Source: Gemella massiliensis (lineage in GTDB: Bacteria > Bacillota > Bacilli > Staphylococcales > Gemellaceae). From it: a stretch of 64,000 nucleotides of DNA. Below are positions 17,060 through 20,865 of the stretch, in pieces. Made by a program: the position numbers and the translations under genes. The notes under the pieces are model-generated. The model did not search any database. It worked only from the letters and a program-made list of their open reading frames with translations, and was not told where the DNA came from. Location of the stretch: contig NZ_LT635546.1 of NCBI RefSeq assembly GCF_900120125.1, positions 175,228 to 239,227 of the forward strand. The letters are read 5' to 3'. The stretch's first letter is position 1. Each line of letters opens with the position of its first letter.

Positions 17060-17090
17060 AAAGGGTGAGCAAAATTGCTCACTCTTTTAT
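17060..17090. terminator. Bidirectional terminator between trxA and the OsmC-like gene
   Basis: Stem GGGTGAGCA / TGCTCACTC with A-run before and T-run after, so it can stop both converging transcripts. It overlaps the end of the OsmC-like gene by a few bases. Confidence 0.85.
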
Positions 17091-17554
17091 ATTATAGGGA
17101 TAAATTCTATATTTATATCAATGGAAGATTTTAAAGTGTTATAAATAAATGAACGTTTTAAAGCATTATTACAAAATTCTATTAATTCGTCATCTTCTAT
17201 ATCAGCATATAAATAAATAATAATTTTACACTTATCTATTTTCGGTTCTTCATTATATCCTTTAACTCCTAAAAGTGTTAGGGGATTTTTTAATATAAAA
17301 TGAATTTTTCCCTCAATTTCCTCAATTTCAAAATTTTCATGTTGACTTTGATTAACAATACTATGTATTATTCCACCTAAAGTGGCACTTGCAAAATAAT
17401 TTAAGCTACTTTTATAATCTGCATTAATATCAAAATCTATTTCACTACTAACTTCTATGCAATCATTATTTGTGAAAAGTTTTAAAACTTTATTTTGAGA
17501 CAAAACACCACGAAAAGAAACGTCATAATTATGAGATTCATAGATATTATTCAT
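17087..17554 (-). CDS. OsmC-fold protein lacking the redox cysteines
   Basis: A 155-residue protein that I read as an OsmC/Ohr-fold domain: a beta-rich N-terminus, then SSLNYFASATLGGIIHSIVN near residues 49-68 at the place of the family's first cysteine helix, and KRSFIYNTLKSSIDINIEFIP at the place of the second (normally CPVxNTL). Both peroxidatic cysteines are absent, so a hydroperoxide reductase role is unlikely. It is the last gene of a four-gene operon and overlaps the MetE-like gene by 8 bases, implying a shared function. The role is unknown; a binding or carrier function is possible. Confidence 0.6.
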   Translation of the reverse strand: MNNIYESHNYDVSFRGVLSQNKVLKLFTNNDCIEVSSEIDFDINADYKSSLNYFASATLGGIIHSIVNQSQHENFEIEEIEGKIHFILKNPLTLLGVKGYNEEPKIDKCKIIIYLYADIEDDELIEFCNNALKRSFIYNTLKSSIDINIEFIPII

Positions 17555-18728
17555 AGCGTGACCTTAAGTATTTACTAGCTTCACTTAGGCGTGCCAGTTT
17601 TTTATCAATAATATTGACAGTGCTGACCGGTCTGTTAGCGAATGTTGCAAAACCGCAATCAGGATTTAACCAAATTCTTTCTTTTGGAAGAAATTTTAAC
17701 GCTTCTTCTGCTCTGGTAACAATAGATTCTAAAGATTCTATTTCATCTGTTCTTGGATTCATAACGCCTAATCCTAGTGTACAGTTTTCTTTGATTATTT
17801 TACTTTCAAGCAATGAGGATAATTCTCCTGCACGTGGTGTAGAAAATTCTAGTGTAAGTATATTAGGTAAAACTTTTTCAAATAATGGTAGTAGAGGTGT
17901 ATATGGTCCGGTTAGCAAAATACTTTCATTGCGACTCCAGTTTCCACGACAAACATGTAAAGATACTAAAATTCCTTTTTCTTTTGCATAAGAAACAACA
18001 TTTTTGATTAAATGGGTAGCAAATTCAAGTTCTTGAGTTGGATCTTTTTTTTCAGATAGTGCAGCACACATAAAAGAGCGTGTTTTTCCCTCGGTAAAAA
18101 CTACTTCGGTTAATACGGGTTCATCAAATTGAACAATTTCGACACCTTGCAGCACAAGTTCATCAATTTCTTTTTTTAGAACATTTATAATATCTTCTCC
18201 CAGATGTTCTTTATTATTATAATGTTGTTTTGATAATGCCGGTAGCCACATAGAACGTGTTATTAAGTATGGTCCGGGGAGTGTTGCTTTTAATGGAGAG
18301 GTTGTGAATTTTCTTAAATATTTAATTTCATCAGCAACTAGCGGTTTGTTATAACTGACTTTTCCGGTACAAATAGCATTTTTAATACTAATAGCAGGAA
18401 CATCAAGAGTTTCTAATATTTGCTCGAATGCTTGTTTGTCTTCAATATAGTCAAACATATCAGCCATACTCATCATTGTAACACCATTTAATTTATTTGC
18501 GATAAAGGATACATAGTTATCACGATCAAGTTCACCGCTGGTAATAATATCAATGTTATTTTTTTCTTGTAAATCCACAAAAAATTTAGTTTCTTCATCT
18601 AAAAGTTTTTTATAATCTTCTTGTGATAAATTACCTTTGAGAAATTTTCTTTTTGCGGTAAGCAGTTTTTTGCTACGGGGCATACTTCCCAGTAGCGAAG
18701 TTGTAAATGATTTAAAATTATTTTCCAT
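17547..18728 (-). CDS. MetE-type zinc methyltransferase (C-terminal domain only)
   Basis: A 393-residue protein of the cobalamin-independent methionine synthase superfamily (MetE C-terminal barrel, similar in size to Bacillus YxjG/YxjH). The zinc ligands are intact: His258 and Cys260 in SLHVCRGN, Glu294 in LTLEFSTPRAGE, Cys358 in NPDCGFAT. The N-terminal MetE half is absent, so the methyl donor may not be the usual folate. The chosen ATG 18728 has AGGTG about 6 bases upstream; a GTG three codons earlier is an alternative. It overlaps the PhnD-like gene by 11 bases. It probably transfers methyl to a thiol such as homocysteine; the substrate is inferred only. Confidence 0.82.
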   Translation of the reverse strand: MENNFKSFTTSLLGSMPRSKKLLTAKRKFLKGNLSQEDYKKLLDEETKFFVDLQEKNNIDIITSGELDRDNYVSFIANKLNGVTMMSMADMFDYIEDKQAFEQILETLDVPAISIKNAICTGKVSYNKPLVADEIKYLRKFTTSPLKATLPGPYLITRSMWLPALSKQHYNNKEHLGEDIINVLKKEIDELVLQGVEIVQFDEPVLTEVVFTEGKTRSFMCAALSEKKDPTQELEFATHLIKNVVSYAKEKGILVSLHVCRGNWSRNESILLTGPYTPLLPLFEKVLPNILTLEFSTPRAGELSSLLESKIIKENCTLGLGVMNPRTDEIESLESIVTRAEEALKFLPKERIWLNPDCGFATFANRPVSTVNIIDKKLARLSEASKYLRSRYE

Positions 18729-19542
18729 GAAATTCACCTAAAAAATCTAAGTATTCATTTGCTTCCGTTAATTGTTTAAAACCGGTTATACGACCCGGAA
18801 TCCATTCTTTTAAACCTTCCATATCCATCATTTCTTTATGTTTCGGGTTAGTGTAATCCATTTTGTGTAGAACTTCAAGGAATTTTTCAAAACGTACTTT
18901 ATCCAGCTCCGGACGACCTGAGAAAATACAGTGATCAAAGAAATCTGTTTTATCTAAAATTACAAACTGGTTTTCATCAAGTGTTCCGTCAAGTGTCCAT
19001 GCTTGATAATTAAAGTCAAGCATCCACGTGGCATCTACTTCACCATTTTTTAATGCAACTGCTGAATCTAATTCACCGCCGACATGATCCCCATGTAATC
19101 CTACACCAATATCAAAACGTTTTTCAATATAATCTTTTGAAAATTCCAAACCATTTTTATGTAGGTGATTTATTGGAATAAGACGTGCTTGTGGAGAATC
19201 AGTAGCACTAAAGCCTATGGTTTTACCTTTAAGATCTGCTAAACTATTTATACCGCTATCTTTTTTTACAACGATAAATGATTGTCTGTCACGATCAGTA
19301 TCACGCATAGAACCGTCTAATGCTTTTCCTTTTGTGCGAAGGTGTGCATCTAACCAAGCAAGCGGGGAATTCCAAGCAACATCGATTTCTTCATTAATAA
19401 GTGCATCAACTTGTTCTTTGTAATTTTTAAAATAAATGGGTTCAATAGGAAAGTTTTCATCTTCAAAGAATTTAGCGATAATTTCCCAAATAACTGTTAC
19501 TTTTGGAGCATAGATAACTGCTCCTATTTTTAATTTAGACAT
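18718..19542 (-). CDS. PhnD/SsuA-like periplasmic-binding-protein fold, no signal peptide
   Basis: A 274-residue protein with the type II binding-protein fold of phosphonate/sulfonate binders: KIGAVIYAPKVT at the start, INEEIDVAWNSPLAWLDAH near residues 49-67, SLADLKGKTIGFSATDSPQARL near 101-122 and GEVDATWMLDF. It begins directly with the mature fold (MSKLKIGAVIY), without a hydrophobic leader or lipobox, so it should be cytoplasmic. No permease or ATPase gene accompanies it. Such folds also serve as enzymes (for example MqnA/MqnD and THI5 relatives), which suggests a catalytic or substrate-delivery role with the neighbouring genes. Function unassigned. Confidence 0.72.
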   Translation of the reverse strand: MSKLKIGAVIYAPKVTVIWEIIAKFFEDENFPIEPIYFKNYKEQVDALINEEIDVAWNSPLAWLDAHLRTKGKALDGSMRDTDRDRQSFIVVKKDSGINSLADLKGKTIGFSATDSPQARLIPINHLHKNGLEFSKDYIEKRFDIGVGLHGDHVGGELDSAVALKNGEVDATWMLDFNYQAWTLDGTLDENQFVILDKTDFFDHCIFSGRPELDKVRFEKFLEVLHKMDYTNPKHKEMMDMEGLKEWIPGRITGFKQLTEANEYLDFLGEFHGK

Positions 19543-19737
19543 ATAATTTACCTCATATTTTTATATTTATTTTTTAATCCTTAAGATAAAGATGATTAAA
19601 AGTAATTGATCTATTAATATAAATAACGGCGATTTATATAATGTTTGCTTAATCATGTTTTTTGATATTTTTATCAATATATTAATAGTATGCAAGGGAG
19701 TAAAAAGCTCTTTACTCCCTTATCTTTCATTTTAATT

Positions 19738-20865
19738 TTACGGTAATTGTTGACCGGTAATAGCTTTACCTAACCAAAGTGTGAGAACGTCAACACTTGG
19801 AGCCATAATGTGACTTGCAAATGAATCTCTTAAGTAACGTTCCATATTACCCATACGATTATAAGCTTTACCACCACCAACACGCATTCCAATTCTTGCC
19901 AGTTCAATAGATGCTTCACTAGCAAAAATACGTGCTGATAAAATTTTAGCAAGAGCATCTTCTTCTCCGGCTAGGAAACTACGTACAGCTTCATTTGTTC
20001 CTAGGACAGCAACGTTAGTTTGTGAATAGATTTTAGCAAGATGAATTTGAACAGTTTCAATATTGCTTAAAGACTTACCATCAGGATATTTTCTATTGGT
20101 AGTATGCTCAACAGCTTCATCTAAAATAGCTTGACAAAGTCCTGTATAAACGGCCGCTAATCCGGTAATAAAGTAAGTAGCAACGATGGTGAATACTTGT
20201 TCAACACCGCTACCGGCTTTACCAATACGCCAAGATTTATCCAGTTCCACATCATCAATAACCATTTGACATGATACGTTACCACGCATACCTAAGCCGT
20301 GCCAAGTATTAGGTTTAAAGTTTAATCCGTCAGTATTAAGCGGAATTATCCAGTTATCGATTTCTCCTTCTACATCAGATGGAGCAAGAACTAAGTAATA
20401 AGATGCTTGTAAAGCAGAGGTAACCATACTTTTAACACCATTGAAAACAACAGTGTTTTCTTTAAAATCAGTTTTTAAATCTGAGATATAGAAGTGAGTT
20501 CCGGTACCAAGTTCACTATAAGCTAATGCCAAAAATTTTTCATTTTCTACAACGTCTTTACAGATTTTAGCTTTTAAAGATTCATCAGCATAAGAAAGAA
20601 TACAATTTAAAGCGACATTGTGCATCATATAACAAAGACCTACAGTAGCACTTGATTTTGCGAAAGCACGACAAGCATCGGCATGTTCCTGCATGTTTTT
20701 ACCTAAACCGCCAAATTCCTCAGGAATCATTAGTTTAAAATAACCGGCTTTTCCCAGTTCTTCAAAAACTTCTTCAGGAAATCTTTCTTTTTCATCTATT
20801 TCTTTTGCAATAGGATCGATATATTTTTTAGCGAACTCTCTTGCCTTATTGTAAAATGTTGTCAT
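19738..20865 (-). CDS. Acyl-CoA dehydrogenase-fold flavoprotein, catalytic Glu absent
   Basis: A 375-residue protein covering the whole acyl-CoA dehydrogenase fold, with MIPEEFGGLGKN near residues 51-62, AYSELGTGTHF near 114-124 at the flavin site, and GLGMRGNVSC. The C-terminal region reads GGGKAYNRMGNMERYLRDSF and then HIMAPSVD where dehydrogenases have the YEGT catalytic glutamate. The alternative position used by isovaleryl-CoA dehydrogenase also lacks Glu. A flavin monooxygenase of the DszC/SfnC kind is therefore as likely as a dehydrogenase. It is the first gene of the operon, 195 bases before the PhnD-like gene. Confidence 0.75.
   Translation of the reverse strand: MTTFYNKAREFAKKYIDPIAKEIDEKERFPEEVFEELGKAGYFKLMIPEEFGGLGKNMQEHADACRAFAKSSATVGLCYMMHNVALNCILSYADESLKAKICKDVVENEKFLALAYSELGTGTHFYISDLKTDFKENTVVFNGVKSMVTSALQASYYLVLAPSDVEGEIDNWIIPLNTDGLNFKPNTWHGLGMRGNVSCQMVIDDVELDKSWRIGKAGSGVEQVFTIVATYFITGLAAVYTGLCQAILDEAVEHTTNRKYPDGKSLSNIETVQIHLAKIYSQTNVAVLGTNEAVRSFLAGEEDALAKILSARIFASEASIELARIGMRVGGGKAYNRMGNMERYLRDSFASHIMAPSVDVLTLWLGKAITGQQLP

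Follow-up and report, generated by a model that had tools for sequence, protein, structure and literature searches.

Several described systems share components or genomic habits with the operon reported here. Type I mlp gene clusters, which carry out corrinoid-based methyl-selenium demethylation, are strongly linked to selenium-using genomes, and their methyltransferase of the UroD/MetE superfamily has been proposed to free selenide (PMC10418091). MesD, which works with MesX, is a single-domain MetE-type protein with zinc and homocysteine ligands and partner proteins; its methyl donor is unknown, a putative flavin enzyme is suspected as a partner, and oxygen is required (PMC7857596). The mycobacterial Rv1678-Rv1681 cluster (NF049986, NF049984, NF049985 and NF049973) contains an adjacent pair of an acyl-CoA-dehydrogenase-like and a cytoplasmic protein resembling substrate-binding proteins (SBP). 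The selenium accessory genes YedE, YedF, DUF3343 and LysR_Se were defined by their co-occurrence with selD (PMC5322559). We analyzed a stretch of 64,000 nucleotides from Gemella massiliensis (assembly GCF_900120125.1, contig NZ_LT635546.1, positions 175,228 to 239,227; hereafter the window), which carries, in a genome of 1.80 Mb, four genes encoding an acyl-CoA-dehydrogenase-like protein (ACAD), a PhnD-like protein (PHND), a MetE-like protein (METE) and an OsmC-like protein (OSMC). We found that this operon is linked to selenium utilization.

The operon differs from each of the systems above. Type I mlp clusters combine corrinoid proteins with MtaA-like methyltransferases, whereas here a MetE-type zinc enzyme is encoded, no corrinoid gene lies in the operon, and the hosts are aerobic as well as anaerobic. 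Assignment to the type I mlp clusters was rejected because only four families are present, none of them a corrinoid protein, and because METE matches the structure of MetE far better (Z-score 37.9) than that of the methanogen methyltransferase 4ay7 (21.3). METE is also not MesD: its identity to 3rpd, the Shewanella MetE-type structure that PMC7857596 treats as MesD, is only ~25%, when about 55% or more would be expected, and its neighbors are the ACAD, PhnD-like and OsmC-like genes, with no adjacent DUF1852 gene. Unlike MesD, the METE operon occurs in strict anaerobes as well. The mycobacterial pair is ~30% identical to ACAD and PHND, but a radical S-adenosylmethionine (SAM) gene follows it and DoxX-like genes take the place of METE and OSMC; in Actinobacteria, too, ACAD-PHND pairs were found beside DoxX-like and Rv1681-type radical SAM genes. 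The proteins of the operon are unrelated to YedE, YedF, DUF3343 and LysR_Se, and the text of PMC5322559 does not mention methionine, OsmC, acyl-CoA or phosphonate. Our literature search found no paper linking these four genes to selenium.

The four genes form a widely conserved neighborhood. Searching the genomes of named GTDB species yielded 80 loci, in 59 of which the four genes stand together on one strand. These loci belong to Gemella, Bacillus, Neobacillus, Paenibacillus, Cohnella, Companilactobacillus, Falseniella, Anaerococcus, Finegoldia, Peptoniphilus, Haemophilus, Campylobacterales, Synergistaceae, Chloroflexi, Verrucomicrobiales, Planctomycetota, Acidobacteria and others, and the order OSMC-ACAD-PHND-METE was observed in several of the groups named last, including two Chloroflexi. 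In 12 of the 80 loci, PHND (11 times with ACAD) adjoins a TusA-plus-di-iron (DUF455/AurF-like) protein in place of METE and OSMC; its TusA domain is N-terminal (L109:5193-6374 and 11 similar loci), and it occurs in Acidobacteria, Planctomycetota and some Proteobacteria. The remaining 9 loci are mostly at contig ends. The distance matrices of the four proteins correlate at r 0.88-0.94 across 46 loci, higher than in any permutation, with shared species history contributing to the correlation. NF049985 at E<=1e-25 matched only 1 of 398 genomes of a phylum-wide draw, apparently the host genome itself, which indicates that the operon is rare overall. The initial annotation had called for a check of conserved co-occurrence, and the neighborhood proved to be kept across many phyla; homologs with a clear separate function did not emerge. 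These results support that ACAD-PHND-METE-OSMC is one functional unit, previously undescribed.

A second MetE-like frame, identified by a Pfam search for MetE domains, contains exactly one in-frame TGA in several genomes. This paralog was found in 10 genomes (five Gemella, the host included, three Companilactobacillus, Tissierellia KA00581 and Falseniella), all of which encode SelB. In every case the codon is TGA, never TAA or TAG, and falls on the column of the invariant METE residue Cys221 (Cys224 counted from the GTG start), within the motif S-F-Y-U-G. On both sides of the TGA the coding sequence is conserved, with identities as low as 45%, and no zinc or homocysteine ligand is lost. A 4-bp hairpin resembling a selenocysteine insertion sequence (SECIS) lies 3' of the TGA, starting 21 nt from it, at the same position in all ten paralogs. 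Its sequence is GTCA-AGGT-TGAC in seven, a single-base variant in two and GCTC-TGGA-GAGC in Falseniella, where both sides of the stem are altered and the GG of the loop is kept. The folding energy of the 60-nt stretch is no better than that of shuffles (z-scores near zero), and the SECIS case thus rests on position and covariation. A 2026 inventory of 119 selenoprotein families and subfamilies (PMC13188914) does not include the MetE-like family, and deep-Sep does not mention MetE. The paralog therefore appears to be a candidate new selenoprotein family, with a predicted selenocysteine at the METE Cys221 column.

A relative of the YedF C-terminal domain (TIGR03527; 111-134 aa, DsrE-like) adjoins the paralog in all ten genomes. 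Elsewhere in the host genome, the selenocysteine locus has the order selD(TGA)-yedF-putative Se/S carrier-selB-cysteine-desulfurase/selenocysteine-lyase relative-selA (L200:2814-9400, contig C6); ARAGORN found no tRNA-Sec in this 14-kb sel locus, the sole stretch searched for it. Selenocysteine within the four-gene operon itself was ruled out, as internal TGA codons are confined to the MetE paralog. In Companilactobacillus versmoldensis METE is split and has no in-frame stop, which looks like a frameshift.

The TGA-bearing paralog prompted us to test the operon for an association with selenium genes. All 56 four-gene loci tested are in genomes with SelB (46) or, failing SelB, SelD (10), above curated cut-offs. 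By genome, SelB was above cut-off in 29 of the 29 first tested, two of which are Gemella that lack the operon, and then in 31 of a further 48. Ten four-gene genomes are SelB-negative, seven of them Paenibacillus or Cohnella isolates, and all ten have SelD above cut-off; the seven isolates rule out a strict dependence of the operon on selenocysteine. Among loci of the TusA branch, 10 of 11 are in selenium-using genomes. The background in evenly drawn Bacilli is 68/300 for SelB and 89/300 for SelD. In two Chloroflexi selD is located directly upstream of OSMC-ACAD-PHND-METE, in Miltoncostaea, on a plasmid, it is ~6 kb away from the ACAD-PHND pair, and in a metagenome-assembled genome (MAG) of Coriobacteriales a formate dehydrogenase alpha gene is located 5' of the pair. 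The link of the operon to selenium utilization is well supported by these observations, and a selenium role is very probable. Two Gemella genomes with SelB (G004 and G005) gave no PHND match, indicating that the operon is an accessory, not a core, part of selenium use.

The residue-level observations of the initial annotation, namely the retained zinc site of METE, the absent signal peptide of PHND, and the absence of both catalytic Glu from ACAD and of both cysteines from OSMC, were all borne out by alignments and structural models. METE (Pfam Meth_synt_2, 1.5e-34) has the zinc ligands His258, Cys260, Glu294 and Cys358 and the homocysteine ligands Ser15, Glu66 and Asp202, according to the residue map of core methionine synthases (zinc: H, C, E/D, C; homocysteine: S, E/Q, D) of Price et al. 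2021 (PMC7857596). Among 44 aligned sequences the Cys, Glu and Cys of the zinc site are present in 44 and the His in more than 90%, and the homocysteine ligands are fully conserved. In addition to the zinc site, two further cysteines, C120 and C221, are invariant. The AlphaFold2 (AF2) model of METE (predicted local distance difference test score, pLDDT, 89) superposes on the C-terminal, homocysteine-binding half of Thermotoga maritima MetE with a root-mean-square deviation (rmsd) of 2.4 over 337 residues; the 393-aa protein spans only this half, and the N-terminal folate-binding half is absent. Gemella genome G004 has two other tandem MetE-like genes (L163:4550-6936; 384/385 aa, start MCQNCQSK), distinct from METE and located 3' of a 251-aa cyclase-like gene.

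PHND (Pfam Phosphonate-bd, 5e-31) has as its nearest named family the Rv1680 SBP-like family (NCBIfam NF049985), which it matches at 193 bits, under the cut-off of 400. Its N-terminus, MSKLKIGAVIY, shows no signal peptide or lipoprotein start, and the first strand of the predicted fold already spans residues 4-9. The AF2 model (pLDDT 96) has the type II periplasmic-binding-protein fold (Z 24.8, rmsd 3.6 and 257 aligned residues against PhnD 7s6g) and matches PhnD, PtxB, HtxB, ArrX and AioX over nearly the full length at Z 20-25. These proteins bind phosphonate, phosphite, hypophosphite, arsenate and arsenite, respectively; by fold, PHND is thus predicted to be a small-anion binder, yet a cytoplasmic one. 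It differs from them in the missing signal peptide, the lack of ABC transporter genes in the operon, and invariant residues of its own (D115-S116, G151-D152, E157 and H204-C205, with the motifs GDH.GGE and DHC).

ACAD matches the N, M and C domains of Pfam Acyl-CoA_dh (2e-22), and its nearest named family is Rv1679/FadE16 (NCBIfam NF049984), at 223 bits, under the cut-off of 600. In HMMER alignments the IYEGT motif of ordinary dehydrogenases, the C-terminal site of the catalytic Glu, is replaced by IMAPS, with Ala355 in place of Glu, and the M-A-P motif is 95-100% conserved among 65 homologs. The catalytic residue was not found at the other equivalent position either: at the helix-G site, which holds the alternative Glu in isovaleryl-CoA dehydrogenase, DYE is replaced by TYF, leaving Phe. 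Electron-transfer flavoprotein (ETF; PF01012) was not found in 18 of 38 genomes tested, the host among them, and ACAD cannot rely on ETF in these genomes. The missing residues and missing ETF together rule out a beta-oxidation enzyme or a functional acyl-CoA dehydrogenase. Tandem ACAD copies were observed 5' of PHND, three in Finegoldia magna (L066:5584-8982) and two each in Gemella sanguinis (L043:6631-8978) and Aedoeadaptatus urinae (L083:6349-8919), which suggests hetero-oligomeric or divided roles. OSMC is a marginal match to Pfam OsmC (3e-6; 27.9 bits against a gathering score of 27.5) with no conserved Cys column among 54 members, and an OsmC/Ohr peroxidase, which requires two catalytic cysteines, was rejected.

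By association, we are inclined, with modest confidence, to regard the operon as an accessory selenium-utilization module that salvages an organic, probably methylated or oxidized, selenium compound and yields selenide for SelD. The ACAD-like flavoprotein would change the redox state of this compound by a reaction that involves neither acyl-CoA nor ETF, and PHND would keep the small anionic intermediate bound in the cytoplasm. METE, the zinc enzyme, would bind homocysteine, accept the methyl (or alkyl) group of the selenium compound, and release methionine together with a selenol or selenide. Cys221 of METE, replaced by selenocysteine in the paralog, probably helps to handle selenium, the Cys-less OSMC may be a partner or carrier, and in other phyla the TusA-plus-di-iron protein could stand in for METE and OSMC. 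Methyl-transfer chemistry by METE is proposed tentatively, because the zinc/homocysteine site is conserved, genes for an S-methylmethionine permease and a homocysteine methyltransferase (MmuP/MmuM) lie just upstream of the operon in C. versmoldensis, and the corrinoid methyl-selenium clusters provide a precedent (PMC10418091). The order of chemistry suggested in the initial annotation, flavin-dependent release followed by methyl transfer, is a guess. Its proposal of an undescribed sulfur or one-carbon pathway stands for the undescribed unit and for a thiol or one-carbon step, which fits the zinc and homocysteine ligands of METE, but not for sulfur, since the operon tracks SelB/SelD, adjoins selD in Chloroflexi and has a selenocysteine paralog.

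Several points weigh against selenium salvage by this module. The known methyl-selenium route uses corrinoids (PMC10418091), and we found no direct precedent for selenide release by a MetE-type enzyme. The loop carrying Cys221, and with it the distance of this residue to zinc, is poorly predicted (pLDDT 55-58). The selenium background was measured in class Bacilli only, and the loci counted for SelB/SelD lack phylogenetic independence, though they span many phyla. In SelB-less genomes the selenium link is SelD alone, and a full SelD was not found in one TusA-branch MAG (L122) and one partial locus (L104). In addition, the Actinobacterial ACAD-PHND branch of the Rv1679-Rv1681 type, which is outside the selenium-gene counts, may act on sulfur.

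The main rival is a selenium relay with no methyl transfer, in which METE would hold selenide or perselenide on zinc and Cys221 (selenocysteine in the paralog) and pass it with DsrE-, TusA- or OsmC-type partners towards SelD. The constant YedF-type DsrE-like neighbor of the paralog, the TusA domain at the N-terminus of the alternative third gene product in Acidobacteria and Planctomycetota, the two extra invariant cysteines of METE and the putative Se/S carrier of the host genome are all consistent with a relay. However, the homocysteine ligands, which a pure carrier would not need, are fully conserved, and neither a DsrE nor a TusA gene lies within the operon of the METE branch; we consider the relay rather unlikely. 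It is improbable that METE is a fifth methionine synthase, independent of folate and served by a methyl-donor system of its own in the manner of MesD and MesX, and that the selenium link is incidental. Such an enzyme would agree with the conserved zinc and homocysteine ligands, the MetE fold (Z 37.9) and the putative flavin partner with which MesD also works (PMC7857596), and methylenetetrahydrofolate reductase (MTHFR) was not found in 10 of 38 genomes tested. In the host, a fused homocysteine S-methyltransferase/MTHFR is broken into several frames (C5:219041-220751) beside an intact full-length MetE, and the same gene is one 621-aa open reading frame (ORF) in G. sanguinis; with MTHFR missing or frame-broken in this way, methyl-folate is unlikely as a general donor. 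Several operon genomes, however, already have a full-length MetE or MetH-type methyltransferase, and a methionine synthase leaves the 56/56 SelB/SelD association and the selenocysteine paralog unexplained. No SAM riboswitch, and at the operon no T-box, reached threshold in Rfam scans of the window, related Gemella stretches and 16 further loci, and a methionine regulon was rejected.

Still less probable is a methyl-sulfur or thiol salvage acting on sulfur and selenium analogs alike, with selenium users merely over-represented. The MmuP/MmuM neighbors in C. versmoldensis, MsrAB downstream in two anaerobic cocci, and the DoxX, disulfide oxidoreductase and CcdA genes beside related Actinobacterial ACAD-PHND pairs point to sulfur, but the tight SelB/SelD association, the adjacency of selD and the selenocysteine paralog argue against it. 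An ordinary degradation operon of acyl-CoA dehydrogenase, transport protein and methyltransferase with no special function, as the automatic family names alone would have it, is very improbable given the loss of both catalytic Glu sites, the lack of ETF in 18 of 38 genomes, the missing PHND signal peptide and the conservation of the unit across phyla.

The coordinates of the genes and expression signals are listed in Table 1. The ORFs and Pfam matches agree with the four folds and positions first annotated, and a related Gemella genome (G006) has all four proteins at 95-99% identity to those of the window. The initial annotation had placed the genes on one transcript, which agrees with the layout of METE, overlapping PHND by 11 nt, and OSMC, overlapping METE by 8 nt, but is less clear for ACAD, set off by a 195-nt gap that includes an 11-bp hairpin; in most other genomes this gap is about 8-38 nt. 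As the T-rich tail of the hairpin is on the plus strand only, it is no clear terminator for the operon. Co-transcription of ACAD with PHND-METE-OSMC is plausible from the sequence. Promoter-like consensus matches occur in numbers near shuffle expectation. The absence of transporter partners, also annotated initially, holds in the window but not beyond it. A second ACAD-PHND pair in the host genome (L031:7019-10504, contig C5), with 44% and 54% identity to the pair of the window, is followed by an NhaC-family transporter; in Companilactobacillus the ACAD, PHND and NhaC-type genes stand 5' of METE and OSMC; and in two Haemophilus BCCT transporters are located ~250 bp downstream of the operon. 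These gene contexts hint at NhaC-type and BCCT transporters as transporter candidates for the pathway.

Table 1. Positions of the operon genes, putative signals, the host MetE-like paralog and other window features (window coordinates unless a contig is named)
Feature	Position	Strand	Remarks
ACAD gene	20865-19738	minus	375 aa ORF
PHND gene	19542-18718	minus	274 aa ORF
METE gene	18728-17547	minus	393 aa from ATG; alternative GTG start at 18737 gives 396 aa
OSMC gene	17554-17087	minus	155 aa ORF
11-bp hairpin in ACAD-PHND gap	19694-19721		T-rich tail on plus strand only
Promoter-like TTTACA-17-TATAAT, 5' of ACAD gene	20955-20983	minus	consensus match only, 11/12
Terminator-like hairpin 3' of OSMC	17065-17082	minus	between OSMC and converging trxA
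MetE-like gene with in-frame TGA	C5:419099-420256 of host genome (L039:7100-8257)		SECIS-like hairpin; preceded by YedF-type DsrE gene, L039:6625-6966
6S RNA	57535-57720	plus	Rfam
Two tRNA genes	45419-45587	plus	Rfam

According to a 2026 review (PMC13188914), the form in which selenium reaches SelD in the cell, and its deliverer, are incompletely elucidated; at the time of a 2022 review (PMC9312934), a high-affinity selenium transporter had yet to be identified. The operon offers a concrete, testable gene set in this context: it is portable, accompanies SelD from human commensals to soil bacteria, is linked to a transporter in some lineages, and has a selenoprotein paralog. It could represent, although we suggest this with reserve, an undescribed folate- and corrinoid-independent route that takes selenium from organic compounds by a zinc MetE-type enzyme with a selenocysteine or cysteine active residue, an ACAD-derived flavoprotein and a cytoplasmic anion binder, together with a new MetE-like selenoprotein family. 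Such a role places in selenium biology a fold, that of MetE, which is commonly taken to mean methionine synthesis, and the automatic gene names given to these families in many genomes would be corrected. The operon is probably a missing route to usable selenium for bacteria.

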